A stretch of 64,000 bases of DNA from Mitsuaria sp. 7 (lineage in GTDB: Bacteria > Pseudomonadota > Gammaproteobacteria > Burkholderiales > Burkholderiaceae_C): assembly GCF_001653795.1 (NCBI RefSeq), contig NZ_CP011514.1, positions 5,514,727 to 5,578,726 on the forward strand, read 5' to 3'. Below the pieces are notes generated by a model, which did not search any database, had not been told where the DNA came from, and worked only from the letters and a program-made list of their open reading frames with translations. Numbering within the stretch: position 1 is the first letter of the stretch; every line of letters begins with the position of its first letter. Shown piece by piece: positions 3,301 to 26,341 of this stretch. A program made the translations under genes and the position numbers.

Positions 3301-3948
3301 TCAGCCCCAGCGCCCGCCGACGAAGGGATTCGTGCGGCGCTCTTCGCCGAAGCTGCTCTCGGGTCCGTGGCCTGGGACGAAGACCGTGTCGTCGCCCATC
3401 GGCCAGAGGCGCTCGTTGATGGAGCGGATCAGCGTGTCGTGATCGCCGCCGGGGAAGTCGGTGCGGCCGATGCTGCCGGCGAACAGCACGTCGCCGACGA
3501 AGCAGCGCTTGGCGCTCGCGGAGTGGAAGACGACGTGGCCGGGCGTGTGGCCGGGGCAGTGGCGCACGGTCAGGGTCTCGTGGCCGATCTGGACGGTGTC
3601 GCCGTCCTCGAGCCAGCGCGTGGGCGTGAACATCTCGGCCGGCGGGAAGCCGAACATCGCGGACTGCTGCGGCAGCCCCGTGATCCAGAACTGGTCGCCC
3701 TGATGCGGTCCGATGATGGGCAGGCCGCGCAGCCGCGCGAGCTCGCCGGTACCGCCGGCATGGTCGATGTGGGCGTGGGTCAGCCAGATCGCCTTCAGCG
3801 TCAGGCCCAGGCGTTCGACCTCGGCGAGCAGGCGCGGGATCTCGCCGCCCGGGTCGACGATCGCGGCCTCCCGCGTGACGTCGCACCAGACGATGGAGCA
3901 GTTCTGGCGGAAGGGGGTGACGGGGACGGTCTGGTCGCGGAGCGGCAT
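3301..3948 (-). CDS. MBL-fold metallo-hydrolase, YcbL / glyoxalase II-like
   Basis: 215 residues from the ATG at 3948; an in-frame TTG at 3972 would add 8. The metallo-beta-lactamase signature is THAHIDH (His58, His60, Asp62, His63), with the later ligands in CPGHTPGH, VGDVLF and PGHGPES. VTPFRQNCSIVWCD at the N-terminus is characteristic of the YcbL type I glyoxalase II-like group, which hydrolyses S-D-lactoylglutathione or related thioesters in the cytoplasm. It is of full family length. It stands alone and converges on the hybrid kinase. The low-GC island starts directly upstream of it. Confidence 0.9.
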   Translation of the reverse strand: MPLRDQTVPVTPFRQNCSIVWCDVTREAAIVDPGGEIPRLLAEVERLGLTLKAIWLTHAHIDHAGGTGELARLRGLPIIGPHQGDQFWITGLPQQSAMFGFPPAEMFTPTRWLEDGDTVQIGHETLTVRHCPGHTPGHVVFHSASAKRCFVGDVLFAGSIGRTDFPGGDHDTLIRSINERLWPMGDDTVFVPGHGPESSFGEERRTNPFVGGRWG

Positions 3949-3967
3949 GGCGGGCGTGAAGTTCGGA

Positions 3968-4049
3968 ATCAAAGGGTCGAACTTTGGATCAAAGGGATGA
4001 ACTTGAAGCTAGGCTAAGCATGTGGTCGTCAAATCAAAGGGTAGAACTT
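3968..4049. repeat. Three direct repeats of a 17-bp unit at the island edge
   Basis: Copies at 3968-3984, 3988-4004 and 4033-4049 share ATCAAAGGG followed by two or three variable bases and GAACTT. Consensus: ATCAAAGGGT(C/A)GAACTT. Spacing between starts is 20 and 45 bp. The unit lies upstream of the MBL hydrolase and beyond the 3' end of the SIR2 gene, exactly where base composition changes. Confidence 0.75.
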
Positions 4050-4129
4050 CGCCCGTGGTAGCGCCTCTAGCTGAGGCTTCTTGCCTTAACGAGCGAAGTG
4101 AAAAACAACGCCCGACAGTCAAGAAGTTT

Positions 4130-7100
4130 CTACCACCTCCGTCGCTGTTCACGCTCGCGCAGCAGCAATAGCTTGGAATCGCGCTTCGTCAGTGTGTGCT
4201 CTGCGAGCACTGCAAGCACCTTCCCGGTCTGATATGGCCAGCCGGATGGATCATCCCCAAGCGAGGCATACAGGAGATCAAGAACTTCGCGAGGATGCCG
4301 TTCCGCGATCTCGGTATGAGATTCGTCAAGCATCGACATGAACGAATTGTTCGACACAACAAGGCTCGGCAGGATGACCACGGAAATCTCTGCGAACCGA
4401 TCTGGTATCGCAAACGCTAGGTCGACAAGCCGACCGGAGGTGCTCGGCGTTCTGGCAGCGAGCTGTCGGGGCCAGACCTTTGTTAGGAATGGCAGGAGCA
4501 ATCCAGACCAATCGGCGTCCTCGTCCTTGCTCCAACGCTCGACGTACCAAAGCATCTGCATACGAAAACTGTCTTTGGCATGGATGAGCACTTCCCGCAG
4601 CTCGGCGTCGGACAATTGCGGAACATCGTCGCCCCTGCGTTTGGAATTGCTCCAGGTTGCCAGGAGCAAACCGGCAACCGTTCTGGTTTGGTCCCTTCCT
4701 GGCGGCTCGGGCGACCTTGCCAGCGTCAACAATCCAGCCTTGAGGTGTGGGAACAGATCGGCGTGTAGCACACGCGAGGTCCACAAAAACCCGGCCCAGA
4801 ACGCCTGGTTTGCGGTCTCATCGCCATCAGCAAGCACGGACAGCAGGTGCTGGGTAGCCCATTCGCGGTCGGTCTGAAACAGCCATCCCAGATCCGCCGC
4901 GATCATCGCAAGCGCCTGATTCCTTCGATCAGTTGGAAGGTCAAGGAGTTGCTCCGTCCTATGTTTCCACGAGGCCGGCAGCCCCTCGCCAGCTTTGTCG
5001 TTGTCCGCGAGTTGCTGCCGCTGAGCCAAGGCGAGCCGTCCAGCAGGGCTATTCAGGCCTTCGTCCACCCACCGTCGTTGCGACTTTGAACTTCGCGACG
5101 CTGATTGGGGCGAGCGCAATGAGGTGATCATCGCGCTCCATAACGATTCAAAGGTCACGGGGCAATCGCGCTGCAGCTGCTGATGCTTGTTATGGATCCA
5201 TGCTGACGCTGGGTGAGGAATCGCTGTGAGCTCCTCAACCGTCAGGCTAGCTAGGCGACCAGCAGTGGCTACCAGCAAGCGTCTGGGTGTGACCTCGTCC
5301 GCTTGGGAGGAAAGGTAGGTAGACCAAGCTCCGGCTGGGAACAAGCTCGTCTTCTTGGCATGGGTGAGCACACTCAGCGCCCGCGATGGACGCTGCTTGA
5401 CCAGCCCGCGGAACGGATCCCGATGCAACCGTGTAAAGAAGTCGCGACCGGAGAGTTCTTCCGCCTTCGCAAGCACTTCACCTAGTGGCAGTCCCGCGAT
5501 TTCGGTGGAATCCGTATCCGCCCTAACGGCAAACACTTCGGAGACCTGAGGCCGCGCTGTGTGCCTGGCCGATTCTTCGCTCCAATCAGCAGCGATTGCT
5601 CGAAGCTCAGCTGACGCCGTCTCGTAGTCAAAAGAGAATTGCGCGCCGTGGATCGAAAGCCAGTGAAGTCTGTCCAGTCGTTGATGAGCTGCCATTACAG
5701 CGGCATCAGACCGCTCTTCTAGCCAAGGGATTCGGCCGATGAGAAATCGCTCTTCGATCTGCCTTTTCATCTGTGCTGGGAGTTCCGCCCACCGATCTCG
5801 CAGAGTGAACAGAAGGTCTCTCTCCTGTCGCGAGGACCAAAACGTTTCGTCATCAATAGCGAGAACCGTCAGGCCGGCTTGCTCCGGCGTAGTGAGACTT
5901 CTGTGTCCCGCGGCCCAGATCCTCAACCGGATGAAAACCTGATCCTGCCGAAACGCCCACTGTGCCACCTCGCACGTCGCAGCTTTGGGATCAGTCTCGA
6001 AGAGTTGGGAAACCAACTTCGTGAACATCACCAGATGACCGGTCAGACCGTGCGCATCGGCAGCAATTTCCTTTCCATCGTCCGCGCGGATGGTGTCGAA
6101 GTACGGAGAGCTCCCTCCCGTCACTTCAAGCTCCAAATCCACGCTGTATTCCAGCGCCTGGCGAAACTGAACGACACCGTAGGCAAGGAGGTCCGCAGGA
6201 AATTCGATAGGCTGGTGAGGATGTGGATAGCTGACGTCAAAGCGCACCAGATCGTTCAATGAATCCTCGATGTCCGCTTCAGGCGCGATGGAAGTGACTG
6301 GATGCTCCAGTACCAAACGTGGCCTGCAAACATTGACTGCCTCGCGCACGAGCGCAGTTGTCCAACCCTCTGCCTTCGCCTGCGCCGCAATCTGGAAGTA
6401 TCGGAGATCGGCATCCGCCCTCTGGCTTCGCATGGCCGCTATGGTCATCCGCCATCTGGAGCGAAGCGCAGGCGAAAAATCTTCGCCTTGCGCGAGCCGC
6501 CTCTCGATCCCATCAAGAACCATGGGATGTAGCGTCGGATGCCACGCGGCCCACCAAAGCGCGGCAGGCTGATGTGCCACGTTGATGAGCCACATACCAA
6601 GATAAACCAGTCGGGTCGGCAGCTCGGTGCCTCCATTTGCGGTCAGACCGGGGCGGTGACCTTTCTGTGATTGACGTGCACTAGGGTGTTCTGATGCTTG
6701 GATGCCTAGTCCATCCCAGGCTCCTTCGGGAACCGGCCGCAAAGCATAGTGATCTGCCCCATCAACTGGGGCTGGTGACTCGTCAGAGTCGAGCCCGTAC
6801 GCATCGAACGGATCGAAATTATCTCCAATGTCAGTGTCCAGATACCGCCGATCAGGCCGCGCATAACGCCGAAGTGGATCAACCACGCAGAGCCAGGTGG
6901 CAGGGAGCCTTGTCTCAGGGGCAGCAATGAGCCGAGCGCCTTCCTCAGTCGACATGAGGTGAGCGACCATACCTCGTTCGTGCGGCGCCATCTGAGCGGG
7001 CCCAAGCTCTGCTGCGGTCTTGAGCAGCTGCCGGTGCCATGCATTCGCGTCGCGAGCTCTCCCCGCCCAAGCCTCTAGCGAGGTCCAAAGGGCTGCATGG

Positions 7101-7912
7101 CGATCAGTGCTGTCGTAGGGGATGGGAGTCACGCCCTTGTGAGCCCATTGAGCCAACGCCTCAGATGCGTTCCCAGACTGGAACGCATAAAGAGACTGCG
7201 AAGGTTCTGAGAAGCGGCTCAAGGCCTCAAGCAGATACTGCACCGGCGGATCATCTGCGGAATAACCCAGGAAGACGATTCGGAATCGTTTCAGCAAAGC
7301 CTGGATGTAGCGCGTCGCCCAACCGTCGGCGAGATAGGCATGGCCAAAGTCCGCGCTGGAGAGAACGAACTCCTCGTCTCGCGCTCCGCGATACGTGGGA
7401 TCGACGCAACCGTGCAGATGGATGATGCCGTGGAAGTCCTGAGGGCGATGTGGGTCGGGCAATCTTGGGGGATTGAACGATGCAAGGCCTGGCTCGCAAT
7501 TCTCGAAGAGCGCGTCGAAATTCGTGGTCACCAGACGAGGTACTCCGGCCTTGTCCCTGGACAGGTCGAGGAGCAGTCGATGCGCATCTAACTTTGCATT
7601 TCCTGCAGGCTGGAGCGCGATCGCCACGGCTTGGCGAACGTCCGACGAGTCGAACTCACGCTCCAAGAGCCCAAAGATCCGATCTGTGGCAACCGTCCCG
7701 GGTTGATCCTTAGCTAGCTTGAAGAGCCGCCTAGCAGGACTATCGAAACCAGAGCCGAGAATTTCCAGAACGCGCTCTGCCAACCTCACGAAGTCCGGAA
7801 GTCCTGCTTGCGCCAGCGAAACTCCCGCCCCGCAGAAGAAGAGCACCTGGCCGGCATCCCGCGCCGTCAGAAGTTCGTCGGGAATATCAGGGCCGTTCGG
7901 AACAAAGCGCAT
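4130..7912 (-). CDS. Large SIR2-domain protein, probable anti-phage NADase
   Basis: 1260 residues. The N-terminal 300 or so residues form a SIR2-like Rossmann domain: FFCGAGVSLAQAGLPDF at 25-41 (NAD-binding GAG), TTNFD at 129-133, IIHLHG at 163-168 supplying the catalytic-type His, and FLGYSADDP at 214-222. The remaining roughly 950 residues look mostly helical; I see no P-loop, nuclease or membrane segment. Family knowledge: stand-alone SIR2 proteins with a long helical sensor region (DSR1/DSR2 class) deplete NAD on phage recognition. This protein is longer than DSR2, and the assignment to defence is inference from architecture, lower GC and context. The gene has no co-directional neighbour close by, so it probably acts alone. 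Confidence 0.8.
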   Translation of the reverse strand: MRFVPNGPDIPDELLTARDAGQVLFFCGAGVSLAQAGLPDFVRLAERVLEILGSGFDSPARRLFKLAKDQPGTVATDRIFGLLEREFDSSDVRQAVAIALQPAGNAKLDAHRLLLDLSRDKAGVPRLVTTNFDALFENCEPGLASFNPPRLPDPHRPQDFHGIIHLHGCVDPTYRGARDEEFVLSSADFGHAYLADGWATRYIQALLKRFRIVFLGYSADDPPVQYLLEALSRFSEPSQSLYAFQSGNASEALAQWAHKGVTPIPYDSTDRHAALWTSLEAWAGRARDANAWHRQLLKTAAELGPAQMAPHERGMVAHLMSTEEGARLIAAPETRLPATWLCVVDPLRRYARPDRRYLDTDIGDNFDPFDAYGLDSDESPAPVDGADHYALRPVPEGAWDGLGIQASEHPSARQSQKGHRPGLTANGGTELPTRLVYLGMWLINVAHQPAALWWAAWHPTLHPMVLDGIERRLAQGEDFSPALRSRWRMTIAAMRSQRADADLRYFQIAAQAKAEGWTTALVREAVNVCRPRLVLEHPVTSIAPEADIEDSLNDLVRFDVSYPHPHQPIEFPADLLAYGVVQFRQALEYSVDLELEVTGGSSPYFDTIRADDGKEIAADAHGLTGHLVMFTKLVSQLFETDPKAATCEVAQWAFRQDQVFIRLRIWAAGHRSLTTPEQAGLTVLAIDDETFWSSRQERDLLFTLRDRWAELPAQMKRQIEERFLIGRIPWLEERSDAAVMAAHQRLDRLHWLSIHGAQFSFDYETASAELRAIAADWSEESARHTARPQVSEVFAVRADTDSTEIAGLPLGEVLAKAEELSGRDFFTRLHRDPFRGLVKQRPSRALSVLTHAKKTSLFPAGAWSTYLSSQADEVTPRRLLVATAGRLASLTVEELTAIPHPASAWIHNKHQQLQRDCPVTFESLWSAMITSLRSPQSASRSSKSQRRWVDEGLNSPAGRLALAQRQQLADNDKAGEGLPASWKHRTEQLLDLPTDRRNQALAMIAADLGWLFQTDREWATQHLLSVLADGDETANQAFWAGFLWTSRVLHADLFPHLKAGLLTLARSPEPPGRDQTRTVAGLLLATWSNSKRRGDDVPQLSDAELREVLIHAKDSFRMQMLWYVERWSKDEDADWSGLLLPFLTKVWPRQLAARTPSTSGRLVDLAFAIPDRFAEISVVILPSLVVSNNSFMSMLDESHTEIAERHPREVLDLLYASLGDDPSGWPYQTGKVLAVLAEHTLTKRDSKLLLLREREQRRRW

Positions 7913-8239
7913 GTCTCATTCATCCATGGGTTGTTGGCGGCGGGTGCGGTGATGACGTGTCAAGAGACACGGCTCGGCAGGGAGTTGGAGCCCGCTTACA
8001 GAAGGTTCCGCACGCTTGAGGTAGATGCAGATGCGGCGATGGGAAGTCGCCTTGGTGCTCGACTGCCTCAGTTCAACGTCTGCAGATGTGCAGGGAGCAC
8101 AAGCATTGAACCGCCTAGTTCTTTGGTCTGGTACCCGCGGCGCGCTCGACGACCTCGGCGCAAATCATCGCGGACGTTGACATCCCGGCTGCAGAACTTC
8201 CCTCGAAAGGCGAGGCGGTCCAGTTCAGAAGTCGTCCGA
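7913..8239. other. 327-bp gap before the SIR2 gene
   Basis: The gap probably carries the SIR2 gene promoter on the minus strand. A 60-codon minus-strand frame (8068-8250) overlaps the end of the hydrolase by 11 bp, but it is arginine-rich and shows no recognisable feature, so I do not call it a gene. I see no other signal. Confidence 0.4.
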
Positions 8240-9103
8240 TCACCGCGCACACGCCGCCGCGCACAACGCGACCTCCTGGTTGTTCACGAGGAAGGTATGG
8301 TTCGCATGCGGATACCCGACATAGGAGTTGTTATGTGTGCAGCCAGGCGCGTTCCCCGCAAATTCCGGTCGAGATAGATCGCTACTAGACTCACCGACCA
8401 ACCCATCATTCGGAACGGGCAATCTGCGCTGCAGGTAGTTGTTGATGATTAGATTCTTCCAGTAGCCCTTCCCGAAGTCGAGCTGGCGGTAGCCCCCCGA
8501 AATGCTGTGATATGAAACTCCAGACGGTCCCGCTGCGCGACGCAGTCGGTCCAAAAGGGTAGGAGGCGAATCCGATTTGATCAGCTGACGGGCCGAGTCA
8601 GCTTGAGCTGCGAAGCCTCGCGGATTCGCTCCGCCTATCGCTTCACCCCAGTAAGCCATGCATCGAGGAACCCAGTTCCCTTGCAGGGTCCCGTCGTTCG
8701 GCGTTCCGAGAGTGATGACCTTCCTTACGAAGGCTTCACCGCCCGATAGTGAGACCGCCGCCCTTGCGACAAGTCCACCCATGCTATGTCCCACGAGGAC
8801 AACCCTGTTCTTCGATACGCTCCCGGCGCTATCGAGCAGTCTCAAAAGGCCGACTAGTGTGGAAGCGGCGTGATCGATGCCCCGGTGGCACGCGTACTCG
8901 AACGCGAAGGCTACGAATCCGGCACCGGAGAACTGATGCATCAGATCTCGCATGTAGCTGCTATCGGCAGTGAAGCCATGGATGAAGACCACAGCATTGC
9001 CTGCAACGAAGTCGTCATGAGTCGCCCTCGCGCCGTCAGAGTAGCGCAAGATGGCATCGCCTGTTCGCACTAGCCGGTGCTGGGCTGAGCTCATTGCAGT
9101 CAC
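8240..9103 (-). CDS. Alpha/beta hydrolase, lipase/PGAP1-like, coupled to SAHH-like gene
   Basis: 287 residues from a GTG at 9103 whose last two bases overlap the upstream TGA (GTGA junction), which shows translational coupling; an ATG three codons in is an alternative. The fold is evident from [21 protein letters not shown] (oxyanion loop at about 38-58), the nucleophile elbow GHSMGG with Ser107, [10 protein letters not shown] after it, and a likely Asp in VPNDGLVGE and a His in [10 protein letters not shown] near the C-terminus. It resembles lipases and deacylases of the DUF676/PGAP1 group. There is no clear signal peptide, so a cytoplasmic substrate is likely. The substrate is unknown. Coupling to the SAHH-like gene suggests joint action. 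Confidence 0.85.
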
Positions 9104-11037
9104 GACGGCACCCCAATGGCAAGCATGTGAGCCTCCAGTCGCACCTCCGAATCCCCCGAGCTACCGATTGCATCCGGATCAATGAGGCTCCAGTAGTCGA
9201 ATGGCGTCAGTTCAGCCCGCGAGCCTTCAACAATGCGAACGCCGCCAACGGTCCGGATTTCTCCACTCGGAAACAGCGCAATAGTGACAAGGGATGACTC
9301 TTCCGCGTGAGATATGGCGGGGTGAGCGAGCCGAATTGGAATTGGATCTGGAAGTTTCTCCATGAAGAAATCCGACAGCGCGTTCATATCGCCGCCGAGT
9401 CTCACCCGGTACATGACCGTGACGATCTCGGTCGCTTGTGCGTCGGTAGCCCATTGAGGAAGGCGGGTCTTGACTTCCCGCTGCTCATCGGGAGGCAGCC
9501 AGCGAGTGTCTCGCGAAACTACGATTTGATCAGGCCCCGATCGGCTTTCGCTCTCAGTTTGTTCGTGTTGAGTAGTCGCGATGTGACGTTGCTGCTCCCC
9601 TCTCCAGCCAGCCTTCGGAAGGTCTTTATATGGCCCTTCTATTGAAACACCGATGTAGGCGGCCTGCTCGTCGGTGAGCGTGGTGAGCTGCGCGTTCAGC
9701 GACTGCAATTGCAGGCGTGCTACTTCTTCATCCAAGTGTCGAGGGAGCACGTAGACTTGGCCTACCTCGTACTTGGCGCTGTGCGTGAATAGCTCAATCT
9801 GCGCGATTGCCTGGTTCGCGAACACCGATGACATAACGTAGCTTGGATGGCCGGTGCCGCACCCCAGGTTCACGAGGCGGCCCTTGGCGAGCACGATGAT
9901 GCGCTTTCCGTCGGGGAAGACTACGTGGTCGACCTGCGGCTTTATCTCATCCCACTCGTACTGCTCGATCGACGCGATGTCGATCTCGTTGTCAAAGTGA
10001 CCGATGTTGCAGACGATGGCGTTGTGCTTCATTTGCGCCATATGGTCGTGCGTGATGACATGCTTATTGCCGGTGGCCGTGACAAAGATGTCTGCCTTAT
10101 CGGCGGCGTAGTCCATCGTGACCACGCGGTAGCCTTCCATTGCCGCGCGCAGAGCGTTTATTGGGTCGATCTCAGTCACCCAGACCTGCGCGCTCAAACC
10201 ACGCAGAGCCTGAGCAGACCCCATTCCCACGTTACCGTAGCCGCACACTACGGCAATCTTGCCGGCGATCATCACGTCGGTTGCCCGCTTGATTCCATCC
10301 ACCAGGCTCTCGCGGCTGGCATACAGGCTGTCGAACTTGCTCTTCGTGACGCTGTCATTCACGTTGATGGCGCGAAACAGCAGCTTGCCAGATCGGGACA
10401 GTTCCTTCAGGCGATGTACTCCGATCGCTGCCTCCTCGGACACACCAACGATCCTGGCACTCATGCGCGTGTACCAGCTGCCGTCGGCGGCGAGCCTGGC
10501 ATTGATCGCGGCAAACAGAAGTCGCTCCTCCTCGCTTCGAGGATTGGTGATAACGCTCGCATCCTTCTCGGCCATTTGGCCCAAGTGCATCAGTAACGTG
10601 GCGTCGCCGCCATCGTCTAGGATCATGGTCGGGCCCTCGGTCTTGGATCCCTTCGAACCAAACTCGAAGATGCGATGGGTGTAGTCCCAGTAGTCCTCCA
10701 GGGTTTCGCCTTTGTAGGCAAAAACTGGAGTGCCCTGCGCTACCAACGCGGCGGCGGCGTGGTCCTGCGTGCTGTAGATGTTGCACGAAGCCCAACGCAC
10801 CTCGGCGCCAAGCGCCTGCAGTGTCTCCACCAGAACAGCGGTCTGGATCGTCATGTGCACACTGCCGGCGATGCGCGCACCTTTCAACGGCTGGATAACG
10901 GCGAAGTCGCGCCGGATCCCCATCAGCGCGGACATCTCCTGTTCCGCAATGCAGATTTCCTTGCGCCCCCAGTCGGCGAGTGTCAGATCGCCCACTGCAA
11001 AGTCACTCTCGGCCGGTTGCGGGAGAACGCGCACCAC
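9100..11037 (-). CDS. S-adenosylhomocysteine hydrolase-like protein with a novel C-terminal domain
   Basis: 645 residues from a GTG at 11037 preceded by a strong GAGGAG site. Residues 15-471 align with SAHH throughout: [17 protein letters not shown] (61-68), [10 protein letters not shown] (84-93), DDGGDAT (141-147), [12 protein letters not shown] (225-236, with the Lys232 and Asp236 equivalents of human Lys186 and Asp190), GYGNVGMG (267-273), [10 protein letters not shown] and [12 protein letters not shown]. Three things are odd. The substrate-binding EETTTG motif is EEAAIG (201-206). Asn after the catalytic Asp is Ser237. After GPYK (468-471) the usual KPDHYRY end, which binds NAD of the neighbouring subunit, is replaced by about 174 residues I do not recognise. 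It is probably a repurposed paralogue; the housekeeping enzyme should be elsewhere. Confidence 0.85.
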
Positions 11038-11935
11038 AAGGACTCCTCAAAGTTTGAGCTCCCCAAGCATAGCCGGAGCGGTCGAAGTGGCGCGGTGGTC
11101 TATACGCGGGGCCATGGGCATCAAGCGAGGCCCGCTCCGGGATCTGCGAGTTCCCACGGACCCGCAAGCCCGTAACCGTAGCCTGCAGGGCGTCAGTGTC
11201 CGAGCCTACAAACTCGAAGCAGACCTCAGCGTCATGCTGTCCGGCCAAGAAGGGCTGGATCGCCCGCTGAGTCGGGCCGGCACATGCGTATCGCCACTTT
11301 CCCGGCGTCTAAGCCGATGAAGCGTCATTCCTTCTTGCGAAGCCGTCACAGGGCTAGCGCGAGCCCTCGTAGTCGCGCAATACCGCACCACTATGCGCAA
11401 TGAGCCGCTCTCACACGCTATCCTCAGTCAGCAAGCGTAATGGGTAGAGCCAAGTTGTGACCCATATGCCTTCAGCCAGCCATTAGTTCGAGCACCCATT
11501 GGTGTACACCGAAGCCGCGGCTCGAAGTCGACTGCCTACGGCTGGGAATAGTCTTTCGGGCCGCCCGCTCCATGTCCGCTTTTGCTGGCGGATTCAACCA
11601 GTCGATGCAACGCGCTGATCGCCGCGAACGTGCCATGCAACTGGTCTGGGATGCGCAGGCGGCCCCAGTCAAACCGGGCACCCTGGGCATCATCAGCAAC
11701 AGAGTCGCAACCAGTAGCGACAGTCACCGACAGCATGGCTGTCACGACCAGTGCATGCGGTCGAGGCTGGCCGGCAAGGGCGCGCGGGCTACCAGCACGA
11801 GCAGACTGACTGGGCAACCTCCTCAACGTCCGAAAGAGCTTGTCTCTGCCGCCGTCATCAAGGTTGATGGCGGATCGCTTGACTTCATGATTGCCGAAAG
11901 CAACATCGGCAATTTGAATGGAAAGGGTGGAGGCG
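11038..11935. other. About 900-bp region without a confident gene
   Basis: It contains the probable promoter of the SAHH-like gene, then low-GC sequence with short overlapping frames on both strands. The best is the end of a minus-strand frame (stop at 11536) that reads MLSVTVATGCDSVADD and could be a small lipoprotein of about 65 residues. A plus-strand frame around 11840-11930 also looks protein-like and may be the remnant of a frameshifted gene continuing into 11936. Neither is strong enough to call. I see no tRNA-like fold or insertion sequence ends. Confidence 0.35.
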
Positions 11936-12178
11936 ATGAAGGTCACAGGGACGCTAGGGCTGAACCATGCCCGCCGTGAGGCCCGCCTGGACGAAGTGGC
12001 GAGAAGCTCGCTGTTGACCACCGACACCAAGCCAGGCCACCTCTCCGACCGAGGTTGTGAGGAGGCATACAAGTACTTCAGCAATCTGCCAGGATTTGGC
12101 CATGGAACACGGATTGAAGTCGATGGCACGTCAACCTACGTGTTCGGGTTTGGATATGCGTTACAGATCAAGCTCTAG
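11936..12178 (+). CDS. Small hypothetical protein upstream of the 810-residue secreted protein
   Basis: 80 codons, ATG at 11936 preceded by a purine-rich GGAAAGGGTGGAGG stretch ending two bases before it. The stop is six bases before the next gene, which suggests an operon. The C-terminus reads TYVFGFGYALQIKL, which looks like a folded beta-strand end, not random sequence. There is no signal peptide and no family I recognise. The sequence just upstream in another frame also looks coding, so this may be the 3' part of a broken larger gene. Confidence 0.4.
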   Translation: MKVTGTLGLNHARREARLDEVARSSLLTTDTKPGHLSDRGCEEAYKYFSNLPGFGHGTRIEVDGTSTYVFGFGYALQIKL

Positions 12179-12184
12179 GGAGGG

Positions 12185-14617
12185 GTGATGAAAAGGACTC
12201 TGTTGACGACGACGCTGCTGCTGTTGTCTGGATCGATTCAGGCGCAGGAGCTGAAGCTGCACGAAGTGACGCGCCTCAGATCCGCTTCTGTTGCCGCATC
12301 GGTCCCCGTCGAGCCGACCGATCTGAGTGTGCGGTCTCAAGCGAGTCCGTACATCGAGATCTATACGCCTAAGGTCTACAACAACTTCGCACTGCGAGTG
12401 CGCTTGGAGCAGATCAAAGACCGCATTGCCACACTGCAAGGGATCGACGCAAGCAAGCTGACCCAGCAGCTTGGAACGATCCAGGGCGCGTCTGTGCAGA
12501 GGGTCAACGCGGCAATTCAGGCCAATGCGTTGCCTACAGCGGGGGTTGTCAACAAGGCCACCACAACGACGCCGGCGGGCACGTCGACCACGCTGAACAC
12601 GACGGAGCTCACTCAGAACACCGCAAGCCCTGCAGGTGCTACGACGCCTGGCGCGGCGAGTACGGTCGCCAAGGAGAGCACGTCTTTGCAACTGATGACG
12701 CCCATGTCCCAAGGCTCAGGCACTGACGTCACGACCACAACAACCTCATTCACGCCATCGATCCCGACCCTGCCTTCGGCGGGTACCTTTGCTGCGCCTA
12801 CCCAGGTCTCGCAGGGGGCATTGAACGCTCTGGCGGAGCAGGTGCAGCTGGAGATGGAGTTGGCGACGGTGCAGACGCTGCTGGAATCGCCCCTGAACTC
12901 TGAGTACTCCCCGAATGGAAACGGGCGCATGCAAGTGACGATTGGCGTGCCAATTTCCGTTCCAGCGATGGCCAACTATGAGACTCGGGGAGAGGCGGTC
13001 GAAGTTCTAGTTGCCGTGTGCGCGGCGCAGCTTGGCTCTCCGCAAGCGGTACCGGAAGCAGCCAAGCCGCTTCTGGTGAACTTGATCCCGAGAGAGAAGA
13101 CCTACAACATCGCCGCCATCACCAACAAGTCTTTCGGAGTGGGGCTCGGCGCGATCGCCGGCGTATTCAGCGTCGCTGGCAACTTCTCTTGGACGCGCGA
13201 TACCTATTACATCGTTCGCGCTCAGGATACGGTCGCGTTGCTCGGGCATCAGTCCTCTCCGTACGATGGAGTGTGCGAAGGGGGCGCTAGGCCCTTACGT
13301 TTCGGCTGGCTGTTCAAGCCGGTACTTGGTCAAGAGGTGGTGTCCGCAGGTCTGCGGGAGGCTTTGGTGCAGCTGTCGATCCCTCGGCCTGACCGGGGTG
13401 CGACGATGCGCATGTTCATTGAAACGCGCTGGAGGAAGTTCGAGAAGAAGACGGGCACCGTCGGTCGGGTGATCGAGGAAAGCAGACGCTCGGAGAACTT
13501 CAATGTCCCTGCGTTGTTCGACACGTTGAATGTGCTCGACATCGCGTACCGTGATGCGCGTCAGAACAACAGCTCCATCTCGATCGCGGGTCATTTTCTG
13601 AGGGGGACGAAGGTGCGCTTGGGAAACACGGAGGTGATTGGAGTGGAGAATACCGGGCGCTCGCTGGAGTTCATTGCATCGAATGCAGCACTCGCTACCG
13701 CCAACATCATCGTAGTCAGCCCCGACGGGGAGTACGTGAACCTTGACCGTTCACTCTATCCACCGCTGACAGCAGCGGAGTCCTCGGACCCCCGGGCAAA
13801 CATCGTCCTAGGGAGCTTTGCGAACGACCACTTGGCGCTGAACGATTGTCTCAGTTCGAAAGATCCGGTTTGTTCGGTCGGGAAGGCAGTCTTTGCGACG
13901 CTGGATCCTAAGGAGGTCCGAAACGCCCGAATCAAAATGAAGGGCGGTAACGAGTGCGCCATCGTTGCCAACGATCCGGAACGCCCTTGGGGAGGCGCCT
14001 CGGTCAGGCTTAAGAGCTCCAGCATTGCGGAGGTGACCCTGCCCATCAAGCAGTGCCTCAGCATCAAACCCATCGCTGGCGAGTATCCGTTGATTGCGCG
14101 CATCGGAGACTCGCTGTTCGGGTTCCCCGGCGACAGGCTTGAGATCAGAGGCAAGGAAGTGGTCTTCGATGCGCCGCGTTCGGTGGTCGAAAACAGCCGG
14201 ATCGTCGAACTCAGCAGGTTCTTACTGGGCGAGCAATACCGAAACACCTATCGGTTGGATGCAGCATCGCACTTCCGCGTCGACTCGATCGCGCTGAATT
14301 CGGTTCTGAACGACAGGCTTACTTTCCTCGTCCTGGGCAACAACCTTGAGGCGGCAACGACCAGGATCGTGCCAACACCTCTGCAGAAAAGCGTGGTGGT
14401 CTACGAGGGAGGAGTCGCGCTTGAGTTTGCGCTGAGCAAGAAAACCGCCGAGTCGGTCAAGAAGGTGTTCTTCCAGAACGGCGACAAGGGGGCCAATGAC
14501 AAATCCGTCTTCGTCTTCGATTTGCCGCAGGCGGAGGTGAAAAAGCAGGCGAAGACGGAACCTGAGGATCCTCGTGCGTTCAAGATGACGCTGACCGGGA
14601 CTCTGCCAAAACAGTGA
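12185..14617 (+). CDS. Secreted hypothetical protein of 810 residues
   Basis: The N-terminus MMKRTLLTTTLLLLSGSIQAQE is a clear Sec signal peptide (cleavage about residue 20). Residues 90-125 and 235-255 look helical, and between them lies a Thr/Ala/Ser-rich low-complexity linker (about 125-215). A central part (about 255-420) has paired Cys and an IAGVFSVAGNFSWTRDTYYIVRAQDTVALLGHQ segment. Residues about 465-510 (ISIAGHFLRGTKVRLGN...TANIIVVSPDGEYVN) resemble an IPT/TIG-like Ig fold. I recognise no family for the whole. A periplasmic or surface role is likely. It starts six bases after a small ORF and may form an operon with it. Confidence 0.75.
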   Translation: MMKRTLLTTTLLLLSGSIQAQELKLHEVTRLRSASVAASVPVEPTDLSVRSQASPYIEIYTPKVYNNFALRVRLEQIKDRIATLQGIDASKLTQQLGTIQGASVQRVNAAIQANALPTAGVVNKATTTTPAGTSTTLNTTELTQNTASPAGATTPGAASTVAKESTSLQLMTPMSQGSGTDVTTTTTSFTPSIPTLPSAGTFAAPTQVSQGALNALAEQVQLEMELATVQTLLESPLNSEYSPNGNGRMQVTIGVPISVPAMANYETRGEAVEVLVAVCAAQLGSPQAVPEAAKPLLVNLIPREKTYNIAAITNKSFGVGLGAIAGVFSVAGNFSWTRDTYYIVRAQDTVALLGHQSSPYDGVCEGGARPLRFGWLFKPVLGQEVVSAGLREALVQLSIPRPDRGATMRMFIETRWRKFEKKTGTVGRVIEESRRSENFNVPALFDTLNVLDIAYRDARQNNSSISIAGHFLRGTKVRLGNTEVIGVENTGRSLEFIASNAALATANIIVVSPDGEYVNLDRSLYPPLTAAESSDPRANIVLGSFANDHLALNDCLSSKDPVCSVGKAVFATLDPKEVRNARIKMKGGNECAIVANDPERPWGGASVRLKSSSIAEVTLPIKQCLSIKPIAGEYPLIARIGDSLFGFPGDRLEIRGKEVVFDAPRSVVENSRIVELSRFLLGEQYRNTYRLDAASHFRVDSIALNSVLNDRLTFLVLGNNLEAATTRIVPTPLQKSVVVYEGGVALEFALSKKTAESVKKVFFQNGDKGANDKSVFVFDLPQAEVKKQAKTEPEDPRAFKMTLTGTLPKQ

Positions 14618-15321
14618 GCCGACGCGAACCAAAAGCTATTGGAAAAGAGCCCACTGCGTCTCTCACAAGGCGCTCCTCGAAGGTACTCGATCCGAGACAC
14701 TTCCGCGGCGGATGATGACAAGAGAAGAGCTTCCAGCGCTTTGGCTGATCGATGAAGCGTACTTCGACGACACCCAGGCATTGCCTCTCACCTGCACGGC
14801 ACCGCTGAGGATCGTCCTCAAGGACGAGATCAGCCCGTCGGCGTTCGGCGAATTCGTCGTCACGCCCGACTCCCATAACGTCTACCAAGCTATGACGTTG
14901 CCATAGTTCCTCGTCTGAAATCCGTCCTCGGAACGTGAACCTTGCAATGTGCTTCACGTTGGGTACCTGGAGGCTCTGCATGTTCGCGTTGGTGGTACCG
15001 AAGAATGCCAGACGAGCTTGGTCCTCCGTTGACAGAGCATGTTGGTATGTATGAACGCCTGAAGTACGCCGAGCATTGCGGCGGCGTACGGGGGATCGGG
15101 GAGCAACCGATTCGGTCCCTTGATTTGTCGCCGTGTCCGACGCCAGATGCTCCAGCGGATCCTGTTCAGTCCTTTCCAACAAGGCGGCCCAACGTCGAAG
15201 CTATCGCTGATCAGAGGGAAGGCTGGGGGAACCTGCAGTTCGGTCCTTCAATTCGGCACCTCAGCGGTGGACTTCGGACGCCCGCATTAGAACAGCCGAC
15301 TCCGCGCCGGGATCGTCCGCG
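14618..15321. other. About 700-bp gene-poor stretch at the right island edge
   Basis: There are short frames only. A plus-strand frame at 14712-14906 (64 codons) and a minus-strand frame ending near 14580 each contain protein-like stretches, but both lack a convincing start site and overlap each other, so they are probably gene remnants. Base composition returns to the high-GC style of the flank near 15.3 kb. I see no terminal repeats or attachment site. Confidence 0.4.
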
Positions 15322-16518
15322 TCAGAACGCGAGCACGTACGGATAGATCAACCGGCCCGAGGCCATGGATCTCGGCGAGACCACCACCTGCTTCGAATCG
15401 TCGAGGAACTGCTCGGCCCGATGACCCTCGACGCCCTGGAACTGGACCTGCAGCACGCGAGGCGTCGTCCACTCGCCGTTCACGCCGAACTTGACGGTGC
15501 CCATGACGGTCTCGAAGCTCGCCTCGCGGGCGTAGGCCGACAGTTCGGCGTCCTCCAGTCCTCCCGTGGCCTCCACGGCCTGCGCGATGACCTGCATCTG
15601 GGCATAGGCCAGCGGCACCATGTAGTGCCCCAGCGGATCCACGCCGGCGGAGGCGGCGCGGGCGCGGTAGGTCTCCAGCAGACCCTGGACGCCCTCGAAC
15701 ATCAATCCGGGGGAGGGCACCCAGTACTCGTAGTTCACGAAGCCGTTCAGCAAGGGGCCCAGCGATGCCTTCACCGTCGCGTTCTGCGGGCCGATCATCG
15801 CGGCGCCCACCATGCCGGGCCGGAACGCATGCGCGTGGATCGCCCGGACCAGGCCGATCGAGTCCTGCAGGTAGGAGCACAGGAACAGCAGATCGCACCG
15901 GCTCTTCGCGACGGCGTCGATGACCGGCGTGAAGTCCGCCGTCGCCAGCGGATAGGTGGCTTCATGGACGACCTCGAAGCCGTACTTCGCCGCGTTGGCC
16001 TTCGCACCCAGGATGGGATTGCGGGAGAACTCCGCGTCCGCCGACAGGAGTCCGACCGTCCTGGGTCGCGGGTGCTGCTCGGCGGCGAGCGCGAAGAATC
16101 CCTCCGTGAGCGCGGCGTTCGGATCCGGGCCGGTCGGGATCATCGCGAAGTAGTTCGGGTAGCCGAGCGTGTTGTTGACGCCCAGCCCCATGAGGCCGAC
16201 GAAGAACCGTTGACGAGCCATGATCGTCGGCATGGCGGGCAGGAGCGTGCCGGTGCCGTACCCGCCGAAGACGAGGTCGACCTGGTCGTCGTCCATGAGA
16301 CGTCGATAGAGCGCCGGCACCTTCGAGGCGTCCGACTGGTCGTCGTGGCAGATCAGCTCGACCGGGCGGCCCAGCAGGCCGCCCCGCCGGTTGATGTCGT
16401 CGAGCCAGATCTGGTGCGCGAGGCGCGCGGCCTGCCCGTTGCCGCCGACGGCGCCGCTCAATGACAGGACGTAACCCAGGCGGATGGGCGCGGAGGAGGC
16501 GTGCGGGTGCTCGTTCAT
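15322..16518 (-). CDS. Branched-chain amino acid/urea-type solute-binding protein without signal peptide
   Basis: 398 residues. The start at 16518 is fixed by the ATGA overlap with the upstream NTF2-like gene. It belongs to the type 1 periplasmic binding fold (Peripla_BP_6; LivJ/UrtA/AmiC): IRLGYVLSLSGAVGGNGQAARLAHQIWLDDINRRGGLLGRPVELI at the N-terminus, then FGGYGTG and the hinge-typical FFVGLMGLGVNNTLGYPNYF. The first residues MNEHPHASSAPIRLG contain no signal peptide, and the frame upstream is occupied by another gene. A cytoplasmic sensor of the AmiC kind is therefore as likely as a transporter subunit; no permease or ATPase genes are near. It is the last gene of a five-gene operon. Confidence 0.8.
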   Translation of the reverse strand: MNEHPHASSAPIRLGYVLSLSGAVGGNGQAARLAHQIWLDDINRRGGLLGRPVELICHDDQSDASKVPALYRRLMDDDQVDLVFGGYGTGTLLPAMPTIMARQRFFVGLMGLGVNNTLGYPNYFAMIPTGPDPNAALTEGFFALAAEQHPRPRTVGLLSADAEFSRNPILGAKANAAKYGFEVVHEATYPLATADFTPVIDAVAKSRCDLLFLCSYLQDSIGLVRAIHAHAFRPGMVGAAMIGPQNATVKASLGPLLNGFVNYEYWVPSPGLMFEGVQGLLETYRARAASAGVDPLGHYMVPLAYAQMQVIAQAVEATGGLEDAELSAYAREASFETVMGTVKFGVNGEWTTPRVLQVQFQGVEGHRAEQFLDDSKQVVVSPRSMASGRLIYPYVLAF

Positions 16519-16904
16519 GGCTTGGCGATCAGGAACACGGTCAGGGAATGGATGACGCCGCCCTGGAAGTGCGCGATGTCCATGCCATCGACGACGGACG
16601 CGCCGTCGCGAGGCCCGGAGCCCCATCGCAGGATGCCGATGCCGTGATGGCCCATCGCGGGACCCTGCGCGCGGAACGCGAAATCAGGCGGCAGCGTGGC
16701 GAGCAGCTCCGACACGGCGTCGTTGATCTCCGCGTGGCCCTTGGCCGTGCGCTCGGGTTCGTTCAGCACGGCATCCGGCGCATACAGCGTGGTGATCGCG
16801 GCCAGACGCTTCTCGGCGTCGTGCTCGCCGAACACCTGCGTCAGGTTGGCCTGCATCAGACGGTCGTAGTCGATGGGTGCTTCTGCTGTCGGTTGGTCAG
16901 ACAT
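16515..16904 (-). CDS. NTF2-like / SnoaL-fold protein
   Basis: 129 residues from the ATG at 16904, which has a GAAAGAGGA site upstream. A GTG at 16919 would overlap the patatin stop (GTGA) and add five residues; I prefer the ATG. The pattern is that of SnoaL-like/DUF4440 proteins: LMQANLTQVFGEHDAEKRLAAITTLYAPDAVLNEPERTAKGHAEINDAVSELL, then a beta-rich half ending FQGGVIHSLTVFLIAKP. Such proteins are small isomerases, hydratases or ligand binders, and function cannot be read from the fold. It is translationally coupled to the downstream solute-binding protein. Confidence 0.75.
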   Translation of the reverse strand: MSDQPTAEAPIDYDRLMQANLTQVFGEHDAEKRLAAITTLYAPDAVLNEPERTAKGHAEINDAVSELLATLPPDFAFRAQGPAMGHHGIGILRWGSGPRDGASVVDGMDIAHFQGGVIHSLTVFLIAKP

Positions 16905-16915
16905 CTCGTCCTCTT

Positions 16916-18340
16916 TCACTTGTCGTCAATCGGGAAGTGCCGTGTGTCGTGTCGCGCGAAGGCGCGTATCACCGCGGACCTTCGGACCGCCTGGCGTCCT
17001 GCGTCCACGGCGACGTCGATCTCCTGGCGCGGGAGCGTCAGACGGGTCTCGATCGCCCGCGCCCGTGCCGCCGTGGCGGGCTCGGCGTTCTGGAAGCCGA
17101 GCAGCTCGACGAGGATCTCCACGTCGTCGCAGCGCCAGCCGGCGGGCACGCCGCCAAGGGCATCGATGTCGCTCGCACTCAAGGTGCATCGATGCCGGAC
17201 CAGGGCGTCCCGCCACCGCTGCATCGCGGCCTGGAAGGAATCCGCCGCCAGGCGCGCGGCGGCATCGATGGCGGCATCGGTCGCCGCCATCGCGGAATCG
17301 ATCCCGTCGGGTCCGTCGAGCCGGCGATTCCAGGACCCGCTGGGACCGCGCCCCGCATCCACGACCAGGAAGAGCAGCTTGCGGACCCGCACGGCATCGC
17401 GTGCCGTCATCGGGCTGTGGGCGTTGCTCGCGATCGCCCGCGAGATCAGGAGACTGGACAGGCCGAAGTTGTCCGTCACGCCGCCGTCCACGAGCATCAC
17501 GTAGCCCGGGCCGTCCGGATCGCGATAGCTCCGCATCGCTTCCGCCACCGATCGCAGCAGTCGGGGCGCAGCAGCGTTCTCCAGGGTGGGCCGGAGGTAG
17601 GCGGGCTCGGGGATCGGACAGTCCGTCGGGAAGGTCCTCAGCACCGTCGGCCTGAAGACCAGCGGCACGGCCATCGACGCGGCCACCGCATCGGCGACCG
17701 GGAACTGGCGGAGGTCGGAACACAGCGCGCCGAAGATCCCCGGCAGGAAGGGGAAGCTGCTGCGGTGATAGAGATCGGTCGCATTGATCCAGAGGTCCGG
17801 GCGTCGCTTCGCGTACAGGTCGGCGAAGGTCGCGTGCTGGAAGACTTCGTCGTCCATCACCTGCGCGAAGTTCGAGCGTTCATTGAGTCCGCCTCGCAGC
17901 ATGCGGACCCAGTTCGCCGGCGAGGCCAGGCTCAGGTTCATGTGCGACTCGAAGTCGCGCGTCAGCACCCGCTCCTTGATACTGGACAGGCCCTCGCGAC
18001 CATTCAGCACGTAGTACGCCGCGGTCAGCGAGCCGCCCGACACCGAGCTCATGAAGGCCAGTGAATCGAGCAGGTCGCCCTGGCTCGTCTTCTCGGCCGC
18101 CAGGCCTTCGAGCACGCCGGCCGCGAAGGCGGAGGCCCTCAGGCCGCCGCCCGAGAACGCAATGCCGATGGTGTATTCCTGGACGAGGTCTTGGGGGCGG
18201 CCCATCTCCGGCGCCACCGCCTGGTCCAAGGGAACGTTTGCGGGCGGGCGCGGTGCGGTCGCGCAACCGCCCAGCGCGACCGCGGCCGCCACGGACATCA
18301 CGGCCGTCATGGCCGCGCGGAGCGAGCCCGCCACGCGCAT
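16916..18340 (-). CDS. Patatin-like phospholipase lipoprotein
   Basis: 474 residues from the Met at 18340; an upstream in-frame start at 18391 would add 17 residues before the signal peptide and is less likely. MRVAGSLRAAMTAVMSVAAAVALGGC is a lipoprotein signal with lipobox LGGC. The patatin fold is shown by IAFSGGGLRASAFAAGVLEGL (oxyanion glycines), the nucleophile elbow MSSVSGGS (Ser-x-Ser-x-Gly instead of Gly-x-Ser-x-Gly, as in related lipoproteins) and the catalytic DGGVTDN. It probably hydrolyses phospholipid acyl esters at the membrane surface. It is the third gene of the operon, 47 bp after the SnoaL-like gene, and overlaps or abuts the NTF2-like gene. Confidence 0.87.
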   Translation of the reverse strand: MRVAGSLRAAMTAVMSVAAAVALGGCATAPRPPANVPLDQAVAPEMGRPQDLVQEYTIGIAFSGGGLRASAFAAGVLEGLAAEKTSQGDLLDSLAFMSSVSGGSLTAAYYVLNGREGLSSIKERVLTRDFESHMNLSLASPANWVRMLRGGLNERSNFAQVMDDEVFQHATFADLYAKRRPDLWINATDLYHRSSFPFLPGIFGALCSDLRQFPVADAVAASMAVPLVFRPTVLRTFPTDCPIPEPAYLRPTLENAAAPRLLRSVAEAMRSYRDPDGPGYVMLVDGGVTDNFGLSSLLISRAIASNAHSPMTARDAVRVRKLLFLVVDAGRGPSGSWNRRLDGPDGIDSAMAATDAAIDAAARLAADSFQAAMQRWRDALVRHRCTLSASDIDALGGVPAGWRCDDVEILVELLGFQNAEPATAARARAIETRLTLPRQEIDVAVDAGRQAVRRSAVIRAFARHDTRHFPIDDK

Positions 18341-18387
18341 GTCATGACCCCCTGCGATGCGCGGGCCGGCCCTCCCGCATTCCCGCC

Positions 18388-18819
18388 TCAACCAGGCTTG
18401 TACTCACGATTCACGGTGAGCTGCCGCTCCCGTTCTTCGGGCGAGAACATCGAGGTCCCCGATTGCGTCGCGCCCGCGGAGACTTCGTCCTGCAGGACAT
18501 CCCAGTGCTCGGCCAGCAGGCCGTCCTGGATGCGGAAGATGTCGATCACGACCTGGGGCGTCGGTGCCCATCCGCGGATGCGGCCGTGGATCGCCACATA
18601 GGCGCCCTCGGCAATCATGAGCCCGGGCTCGTAGAAGAGGTCCGACGGGAGTTGGGCCACCAGCGCGCCCAGGGCCGCGCGGCCTTGCGGAATGGATGGG
18701 TTGTGCTGGATGTAGTCGGGGGCGTAGAGGCGCTCCACCGCCTGCGCGTCCCGGCGCTGGAACAGGGCCGTCATCGCTTCCAGCACCAGTGCCTTGTTGT
18801 GTTCCGTGTTGCCGCTCAT
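18388..18819 (-). CDS. SnoaL-like protein (nuclear transport factor 2 fold)
   Basis: 143 residues. Its ATG (18817-18819) overlaps the stop of the MoaF-like gene by one base (TGATG), so the start is certain. NKALVLEAMTALFQRRDAQAVERLYAPDYIQHNPSIPQGRAAL is the standard beginning of the predicted SnoaL-like aldol-condensation group, followed by GLMIAEGAYVAIHGRIRG and DIFRIQDGLLAEHWDVLQDE. It is cytoplasmic, with unknown substrate. It is second in the operon that continues to the patatin lipoprotein. Confidence 0.82.
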   Translation of the reverse strand: MSGNTEHNKALVLEAMTALFQRRDAQAVERLYAPDYIQHNPSIPQGRAALGALVAQLPSDLFYEPGLMIAEGAYVAIHGRIRGWAPTPQVVIDIFRIQDGLLAEHWDVLQDEVSAGATQSGTSMFSPEERERQLTVNREYKPG

Positions 18820-19175
18820 CAGATCGTCTCCGTCTCGGTCGCCGTGTCCACGACGCGCAAGGCGCCTTCCATTCGGAGGAAGGTTCCGTCGGGAACCGTG
18901 GCGTTTGAATAAAGCCTGCCCTGGGCAAAGTCCTCGACGTGAACCACCGTCGCGCCGCTGCCTTCCACCCAGGTCACCAGGAACAGGCCGGGGCGGATCA
19001 GGGTGGCCTTGAACTTCACCTCTTCGACCTTGGCGAAGGGGCCCTCGGCGATATCGAATCGGATCGTGTCTTCCGACAGGATGCGGAGTCTCACGGAGAA
19101 CTCCTTGAACGAGACGTCGAAGACGAGCCCGACGGGATATTGCGTCGCGTCGGCGGCGGACTGCGGGATGCTCAT
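18819..19175 (-). CDS. MoaF-like domain protein
   Basis: 118 residues from the ATG at 19175, preceded by AGGAG in the right place; the frame stays open upstream but without a ribosome site. FDVSFKEFSVRLRILSEDTIRFDIAEGPFA and ATLIRPGLFLVTWVEGSGATVVHVEDFAQGRLYSNATVPDGTFLRMEG follow the MoaF/calycin-type beta-barrel pattern. MoaF was named for molybdenum cofactor-linked loci, but the many stand-alone relatives have no assigned reaction. It is the first gene of the operon; the region 19176-19403 should carry its promoter. Confidence 0.72.
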   Translation of the reverse strand: MSIPQSAADATQYPVGLVFDVSFKEFSVRLRILSEDTIRFDIAEGPFAKVEEVKFKATLIRPGLFLVTWVEGSGATVVHVEDFAQGRLYSNATVPDGTFLRMEGALRVVDTATETETI

Positions 19176-19403
19176 GACTCTCCTCAAGAACTTGGCCGCC
19201 GCGAGTGTCTCCGGCCGACATCGCCCATGCACTGTCTGGAGATGCTGTCGGCAGTCTGAATGTGCTTCGCGTTCTTGAGGCGTCTGCCATGTCCGAGCCA
19301 AATCGCAGCGTGGCGACGGGTCGTACACCCCCACTAAGTAGGACGCCCTTCCGGAAGCGGAGTCGATAACATCCCTTCGCCTTCAGATCGGGGAGTTGAC
19401 GCA

Positions 19404-19688
19404 ATGAGTGTTGAACAACAGGGCCGTGCTGAGATCGCGCTCGCGGAATTGGCGAGGGACGACAGCGCCCGGGAGGTGCTGCGCACCGCCGGTCAATCAC
19501 GCGGCGTGGCGATGCTCCTGCGCTGTCTTCCGGTCCTGTTCGTGGGTATCGCGGTGCTGATCGATCATCGAGAGCCCTACCTGGTGTTCGGCAGCCTGAT
19601 GCTGTGGCTCATCATCGAACTGGCGGTGAGGGTGGTCGGTCTCCAAAGACAGGTCGATGCATTGATCCGTCTGCAGAAGTTGCTCTAG
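19404..19688 (+). CDS. Small membrane protein, hypothetical
   Basis: 94 residues. Two hydrophobic segments (about 36-53 and 57-75) follow a charged helical N-terminus, and the end VVGLQRQVDALIRLQKLL is an amphipathic helix or short coiled coil. I recognise no family. It is divergent from the MoaF-like operon, with a 228-bp spacer that must hold both promoters. Confidence 0.6.
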   Translation: MSVEQQGRAEIALAELARDDSAREVLRTAGQSRGVAMLLRCLPVLFVGIAVLIDHREPYLVFGSLMLWLIIELAVRVVGLQRQVDALIRLQKLL

Positions 19689-19698
19689 AGACGTCCCC

Positions 19699-20244: not shown

Positions 20245-20345
20245 CGCGCACTCCTGGAGTGGAAGAAGCGGCGATCGTCGGCGGCGGGGCCAGGCCTTGC
20301 CCGTCGAAAGCGATGAGCTGTCGAATGCGGCGGATGGAACGTAGA

Positions 20346-26096: not shown

Positions 26097-26341
26097 GGGC
26101 GCTCCTGCAGGTCCGTAGAACGAGACACCGGGGGAGCGCGCACGAACGCCTGACCCAGGTGGACTTTCGCCTAGTTCAAGCAGAGAACGTGCCGGTTGCG
26201 GATGGACACAAAGTGCGGTCAGCGTTGCAAATCGCGGGGATTCGCGTGCCGACCCTAGTCCCAAAGAGGTATCCGGGCGATGTGCGAATCGATGCCAGGG
26301 TCAGGTTTTGTCAGCCCTGGCATCAGACGCGACAAATAGTG

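Follow-up and report, generated by a model that had tools for sequence, protein, structure and literature searches.

A tail carried by unrelated proteins and paired with a lipase-like hydrolase: a possible guard system with an SAHH-like bait in Mitsuaria sp. 7

The window, by which we mean the whole 64,000-nt stretch of Mitsuaria sp. 7 DNA analysed here, holds on its reverse strand an intact 645-codon open reading frame (9100-11037) for an SAHH-like protein with a C-terminal tail. A Shine-Dalgarno-like GAGGAG (11043-11048), recognised from the sequence, lies 5 nt upstream of the GTG start codon, and the stop codon overlaps the start of the next gene by 4 nt in the motif GTGA (9100-9103). That next gene (8240-9103, same strand) encodes a lipase-like alpha/beta hydrolase of 287 amino acids, the proposed effector, in which Ser107, Asp233 and His269 are invariant among 77 aligned sequences. 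The upstream protein divides into an SAHH-like part (residues 1-471; 9625-11037, reverse strand), the proposed bait, and the tail (residues 472-645; 9103-9624, reverse strand), the proposed adaptor, with a conserved core at approximately residues 505-645. Family assignment of the first part is clear: TIGR00936 matches residues 13-469 with 561.4 bits, above the curated cut-off of 497.6, PF05221 matches residues 12-472 with 430 bits, and the best-matching solved chain is 3d64. Pfam and PADLOC scans covered selected open reading frames of the window; the SAHH-tail protein had no match in PADLOC-DB 2.0, and its last ~173 residues had none in Pfam, NCBIfam or PADLOC, in agreement with a sequence-only reading of this DNA that had assigned a C-terminal part of about 174 residues to no family.

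A canonical ahcY, which that reading had proposed looking for, is present elsewhere in the same genome (G000:C1:4497423-4498817), encoding 477 residues and followed by genes that we take from their sequences to be tlyA and metF, in the order ahcY-tlyA-metF. The SAHH part is identical to this protein at 374 of 463 positions (81%). Among 60 genomes of the order, 55 had an SAHH match at E <= 1e-50, and two copies were seen in this genome only. For comparison, we assembled 30 canonical proteins, namely the genome's own AhcY and 29 from other genomes (L100-L128), which scored highest among the 54 matches there. These share 238 invariant columns, at 15 of which the SAHH-tail copy departs; when each canonical protein was left out in turn, it differed at a median of 1 (range 0 to 7; n = 30) of the columns that the remaining 29 keep unchanged, and the departures of the copy are more than chance would give.

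The departures at invariant columns include T203A, T204A and T205I (10423-10431; human T157-T159), N237S, G240A and C241S within residues 237-241 (10315-10329; human N191, G194 and C195), and K272M in the NAD loop at residues 269-272 (10222-10233; human K226), all on the reverse strand and with human numbering taken from a 1li4 range in which query residue 189 corresponds to chain residue 143. A further loop change, D269N (human D223), is unique to the copy among the sequences compared. The alignment bears out two earlier observations, that the TTT of EETTTG reads AAI at 203-205 and that Ser237 takes the place of the Asn that follows the catalytic Asp. We take the TTT residues to contact NAD rather than the substrate, and most of the altered residues (human T157-T159, N191, G194, C195, K226 and D223) presumably touch NAD as well. 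The NAD loop had been called intact; its GxGxxG pattern is indeed kept, but GDVGKG has become GNVGMG, and G240A and C241S add to the change, such that the EETTTG, DN, GC and GDVGKG residues of the NAD and catalytic sites of canonical AhcYs are not all retained. A C-terminal Lys and Tyr close the NAD site of the next subunit in SAHH, and both had been described as gone: the Lys is still there (residue 471, human K426), while the Tyr (Y475 of the own AhcY, human Y430) is lost, leaving the pair incomplete.

In a tree of the 31 proteins, the copy is sister to its own AhcY, although support is not strong (91/70), and it has the longest end branch (0.57 versus a median of 0.21). It carries 38 unique changes versus 6 in the own AhcY, and its median dN to the other canonical proteins is 0.223 (own AhcY, 0.181). 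By region, 35 unique changes fall in residues 9-297 and 5 in residues 298-471, compared with 173 and 98 summed over the 30 canonical proteins (p = 0.002, in a test whose active-site blocks were picked after the changes were seen). The residue at human N346 and its neighbour are both unchanged. Against its own AhcY, the copy has dN 0.147, dS 0.97 and dN/dS 0.15 (NG86), a ratio that we dropped as an argument because 29 canonical pairs span 0.06 to 0.44 by the same method, codon bias dominating. With its NAD and catalytic site altered and the rest close to the host enzyme, the copy is apparently disabled as an enzyme. The earlier judgement that this is not ordinary SAH recycling therefore holds, given the canonical ahcY, the longest branch, and 38 unique changes of which several lie at the NAD and catalytic site.

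The hydrolase gene led to relatives of the whole arrangement. At five distinct hydrolase loci, including that of the window, the upstream gene is fused to the tail or, in genome G901, to the tail end only, and four kinds of partner are found: SAHH, a type ISP restriction-modification (R-M) enzyme (twice), ribosomal protein S1 and a TssC-like sheath protein. In G287 the tail forms the C-terminus of a complete 1758-residue type ISP R-M enzyme (PADLOC profile positions 3-1640 of 1646), whose gene overlaps by 4 nt that of a hydrolase 38% identical to the window's. In G526, S1 (residues 1-446) is followed by the tail and, again with a 4-nt overlap, by the hydrolase gene. The type ISP R-M enzyme of G901 ends at profile position 1150, and all that comes after it resembles the final ~40 tail residues; its gene overlaps the hydrolase gene by 14 or 32 nt, depending on the choice of start. 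The partner in G1112 is VipB/TssC-like and spread over two reading frames; its identity to the plasmid TssCs listed highest is 27-33%, the tail follows it, and the overlap with the hydrolase gene is 11 nt. This last bait may be broken, given its split frames and its low identity to TssCs. Its two overlapping frames (L098, 295-2341, forward strand) lie on a 3.5-kb contig, where they could reflect a sequencing error or a broken gene. Four of the five loci were found via the hydrolase, which means that every hydrolase found has a tail but not that every tail has a hydrolase; the independent test of the association is limited to a tail search of 299 genomes. No free-standing tail was seen at the loci examined, and Pfam found no NB-ARC or STAND domain in the five bait-tail proteins.

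By profile, homology of the tail is sound at four loci, and that of G901 rests on position and on its hydrolase. In leave-one-out searches against 12,260 ORFs, the tail profile found the window at E = 2e-11, G287 at 1e-7, G1112 at 3e-5, G526 at 7e-5 and G901 at 0.08-0.3, with unrelated ORFs reaching no better than 0.009 and 0.016 when the first four were sought. Compared one to one, the window tail matches that of G287 (4e-7), and those of G526, G1112 and G901 are not significant (E of 0.2 to 8). The tail search of 299 genomes of the family gave three matches, which were the own genome, G287 (E = 7e-8) and G224 (E = 0.007, L005); the last falls in a gene that, judged from its sequence, encodes a RecG-like helicase, and we discounted it as a chance match. 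No tail at E <= 0.01 was found in a collection of 5.8 billion proteins among 528 candidates (window protein as query) or 533 candidates (G287 protein as query), in a search that needs exact shared 5-residue words and a similar total length and so does not show absence. A second SAHH-tail protein was likewise missing at E <= 0.01 among the 528 candidates, which ranged from 355 to 1128 amino acids, and plasmids gave no tail match. Neither the tail nor the tail-hydrolase pair had a convincing match in Pfam, NCBIfam or PADLOC, and the tail modelled alone (pLDDT 38) yielded no usable structure model.

The window hydrolase has the fold of alpha/beta-hydrolase lipases and esterases with an intact Ser-Asp-His triad; lipid hydrolysis is its putative activity, and no secretion signal was recognised by eye. 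Its only hit in PADLOC-DB 2.0, LmuA (E = 0.0077, 14 bits), is unconvincing. Among 8000 scored candidates, 456 were relatives at E <= 1e-5, and of the 120 matches listed (one being the window's own), seven came with an organism: six Burkholderiales and one Pseudomonas. A profile built from 57 sequences was run on whole genomes with thresholds of 1e-35 (two of the runs) or 1e-30 (the rest), at most 6 (three of the runs) or 12 (one run) candidates per genome being scored in some of them. It found the hydrolase in 2 of 399 genomes of the family, 1 of 16 of the genus and 2 of 399 of the order, and in 3 of 349 genomes of G526's family and 3 of 58 of G526's genus, with none in two other families (0 of 4 and 0 of 195 genomes); these sets of genomes overlap. 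Occurrence of the module is patchy. Run over genome contigs, the profile also returned at least 80 loci with 25-52% identity over short stretches and motifs general to alpha/beta hydrolases; none had a tail past threshold, and we did not count them as module members. Three weak viral-contig loci (27-35%) were set aside too, phages gave no match, and for the hydrolase there were two Streptomyces records at ~32% among plasmids.

Base composition separates the partner from the tail at three loci. GC3 values for bait, tail and hydrolase are 0.76, 0.59 and 0.65 in the window, 0.77, 0.52 and 0.47 in G287, 0.77, 0.49 and 0.42 in G526, 0.63, 0.73 and 0.59 in G901, and 0.77, 0.78 and 0.78 in G1112 (second frame only). 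The difference between bait and tail is significant in the window (p = 5e-5), G287 (2e-10) and G526 (2e-11) but not in G901 and G1112; tail and hydrolase differ significantly at none of the five loci, the G901 tail end having 45 codons only. Bait and tail-hydrolase pair appear to have separate histories, and strong conservation of S1, SAHH and R-M could explain part of the difference. The S1 part of G526 is 95% identical to the host rpsA over residues 12-446, with GC3 of 0.769 and 0.772, and the host retains this other rpsA as a 573-codon open frame. With dN of 0.022 and dS of 0.26, compared with host-host dS of 0.23 and 0.31, the split of bait from host rpsA would be about as deep as the distance between species of the genus, and dN/dS is 0.09 versus 0.04 and 0.06 for two host-host pairs. 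In this copy (L094, 7449-9335, forward strand), the first ~11 residues are replaced relative to the host rpsA, and residues 12-446 contain 20 substitutions, 14 of them before residue 190. It is identical to the host protein across residues 127-175, where by eye the counterpart of the ModB-modified S1 peptide lies.

The module of the window sits in a stretch (3970-20363) for which G350, another genome of the genus, has 51 bp instead. Per-kb G+C is 57-62% at 4-15 kb, and the remaining bins measured, at 2-4 and 15-24 kb, have 64-70%. The flanking gene at 3301-3972 was found throughout the genus (16 of 16 genomes). When ten genomes were compared, G350 alone had a match immediately to the right of the stretch; five match to the left only, the contig of G403 ends at the site, and the other three show short matches, which lie further to the right or, for one of 191 bp in G406 (15075-15264), within the stretch. 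The site is thus variable, and a single insertion need not account for all 16 kb. Outside the module, a SIR2-domain gene (4130-7912, reverse strand) encodes 1260 residues, of which the N-terminal ~345 resemble anti-phage Dsr1: NF041818 matches best at residues 1-307 and hardly at all in the rest, and its 367.8 bits are below the cut-off of 1400 for full-length Dsr1, which makes this a probable divergent Dsr1-like defence gene. The low-G+C stretch also holds an 810-residue ORF (12185-14617, forward strand) with no Pfam, NCBIfam or PADLOC match. A patatin-like phospholipase gene (16916-18391, reverse strand) is part of what G350 lacks, and at 23091-26264 (reverse strand) a single ORF combines a di-haem oxidoreductase with an F5/8 type C domain.

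Elsewhere, the G287 locus has a NERD-domain gene as neighbour, but also core genes such as murB, and the G901 locus has a patatin/iHKD gene and an HATPase gene. The former G901 gene (L097, 15432-18185, forward strand) encodes 917 residues with patatin and an inactive HKD restriction domain (Pfam iHKD); the HATPase_c_3 protein (L097, 12788-14752) is encoded between it and the module. Neighbouring defence genes of this sort are common in defence islands, and they are suggestive only of a defence role for the module.

We propose that the module joins a variable bait to a conserved tail, which would act as adaptor, and has a lipase-type hydrolase as effector, together forming a guard system in which the SAHH copy would serve as decoy; from the sequences at hand we give this reading a probability of roughly 0.48. 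In the healthy cell, tail and hydrolase would form a silent complex. A product of a phage or other invader, having evolved against the copied host protein or against a restriction enzyme, would act on the bait, the altered bait would change the tail, and the hydrolase would be freed or switched on to damage lipids, a toxic action that would stop the infected cell. What a decoy must share with the real protein is its surface and not its activity, which fits an SAHH copy changed at its cofactor site. To our knowledge, no phage targeting of SAHH or TssC has been described. In cells infected with phage T4, ribosomal protein S1 is modified by ModB at R139 (PMC10468400). Phage proteins directed against restriction enzymes set off guard toxins, Stp in the case of PrrC and Ocr in that of PARIS, and Ronin is proposed to respond to anti-restriction proteins (PMC12409349). 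Phage targeting fits S1 (PMC10468400) and restriction enzymes (PMC12409349) as baits.

The main rival would have tail and hydrolase as a self-standing pair, such as toxin and immunity protein or enzyme and chaperone, that is occasionally fused to an upstream gene with no sensing role for the partner. The lack of a composition difference between tail and hydrolase at five of five loci, with the partner deviating at three, agrees with such a pair, as do partners unrelated to each other and, in G901, a truncated partner with most of the tail gone. Against it, the upstream gene continues into the tail or its end at all five loci, where no free-standing tail was seen, the SAHH and S1 baits are second copies and not the host's sole gene, and the S1 bait is constrained (dN/dS of 0.09 against 0.04 and 0.06); we consider it unlikely. 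Intact second copies in two hosts, together with site-specific loss in SAHH, favour a decoy over a partner that is irrelevant, though the data do not decide between them. A decaying or chance ahcY duplicate, borne on an island and heading for loss, would account for the long branch, the excess of unique changes and a dN above that of the own AhcY, but it sits poorly with an intact ORF, a Shine-Dalgarno-like site, an in-frame tail with homology in other genomes and the uneven 35-to-5 distribution of unique changes (p = 0.002), and we regard it as quite unlikely.

The sequence-only reading had instead favoured a new function on the SAHH fold, such as binding or cleaving a modified nucleoside; the tail would then assist the enzyme. 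Conservation of most of the sequence, several changes at the cofactor site, and retention of the Lys, Asp and His motifs that we take to be catalytic would suit such an enzyme; it leaves unexplained, however, why in related loci the same tail sits on S1, type ISP R-M and TssC-like proteins, each followed by a hydrolase gene, and no second SAHH-tail protein came up at E <= 0.01 among the 528 candidates, making it highly doubtful. On sequence grounds, the tail is not an SAHH accessory domain; because the loci have tail and hydrolase in common, it is the SAHH part that looks like the exchangeable piece of the module. Even less probable is a metabolic operon in which an extra SAHH and an esterase serve one pathway: the gene overlap suggests a shared process, but the partners differ in other genomes and the island context includes a Dsr1-like gene. 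A T6SS-effector reading, combining lipase and TssC-like protein, was rejected, as T6SS parts account for just one of the four kinds of bait.

Extended to all five loci, the proposed guard system would amount to integrated-decoy immunity in bacteria, with a mobile adaptor-lipase pair taking up SAHH, S1, a T6SS sheath protein or a type ISP R-M enzyme as swappable baits and with phage action on the real protein tripping the lipase and aborting infection; this wider claim we hold tentatively, as somewhat short of an even chance. If it is true, each bait names a host protein targeted by phages, surveying baits would yield a catalogue of such targets, with SAHH and the T6SS sheath as surprising entries, and bacteria would make decoy receptors by exchanging host-gene copies on a common adaptor, a strategy that we know of only from plant receptors. 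A limited search of the open-access literature with few terms, and hence weak as evidence of absence, found no precedent for such bait-tail fusions. Even without decoys, a tail on four unrelated kinds of protein with the same type of hydrolase next to it at five of five loci is an unexplained architecture.

The integrated-decoy NLRs of plants carry a copy of a likely pathogen target on a shared signalling unit, with partners swapped between relatives. By analogy, the module resembles them in fusing a copy of a likely target to a common unit with exchangeable partners, and it differs in that the five bait-tail proteins have no NB-ARC or STAND domain by Pfam and any response would be the work of a hydrolase encoded separately. 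That hydrolase shares its fold and Ser-Asp-His triad with bacterial lipases (BlEst2, a Streptomyces lipase and the Burkholderia/Chromobacterium triacylglycerol lipase), but it is only 18-20% identical to its four nearest folds and stands behind a tail-bearing gene at all five loci. AhcY is close to the bait over 463 residues (81%), with the differences lying in the NAD and catalytic site, the lost Tyr, the tail and the overlapping lipase-like gene; non-catalytic relatives of AhcY also exist in the IRBIT/AHCYL1 type. Baits of the Shedu and BREX type are, as far as we know, not copies of housekeeping proteins. Shedu has variable N-terminal sensory modules on a conserved effector, and inactive restriction domains of BREX-related systems are proposed as decoys for phage inhibitors (PMC12839542). 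The effector of Shedu is a nuclease in the same chain. Ronin, and PrrC guarding the type I restriction enzyme EcoprrI, are toxins silenced by an R-M complex, interference with which they report (PMC12409349), and the G287 locus, with its type ISP R-M enzyme, tail and hydrolase, would resemble this kind of guarding most. A toxin gene tied to R-M is not what the window has, its partner being SAHH, whereas the partner is R-M in G287 and a truncated R-M in G901. In those systems R-M is what is guarded and the toxin is an anticodon nuclease, while the tail described here is also found on SAHH, S1 and TssC-like proteins and its putative effector is lipase-like.
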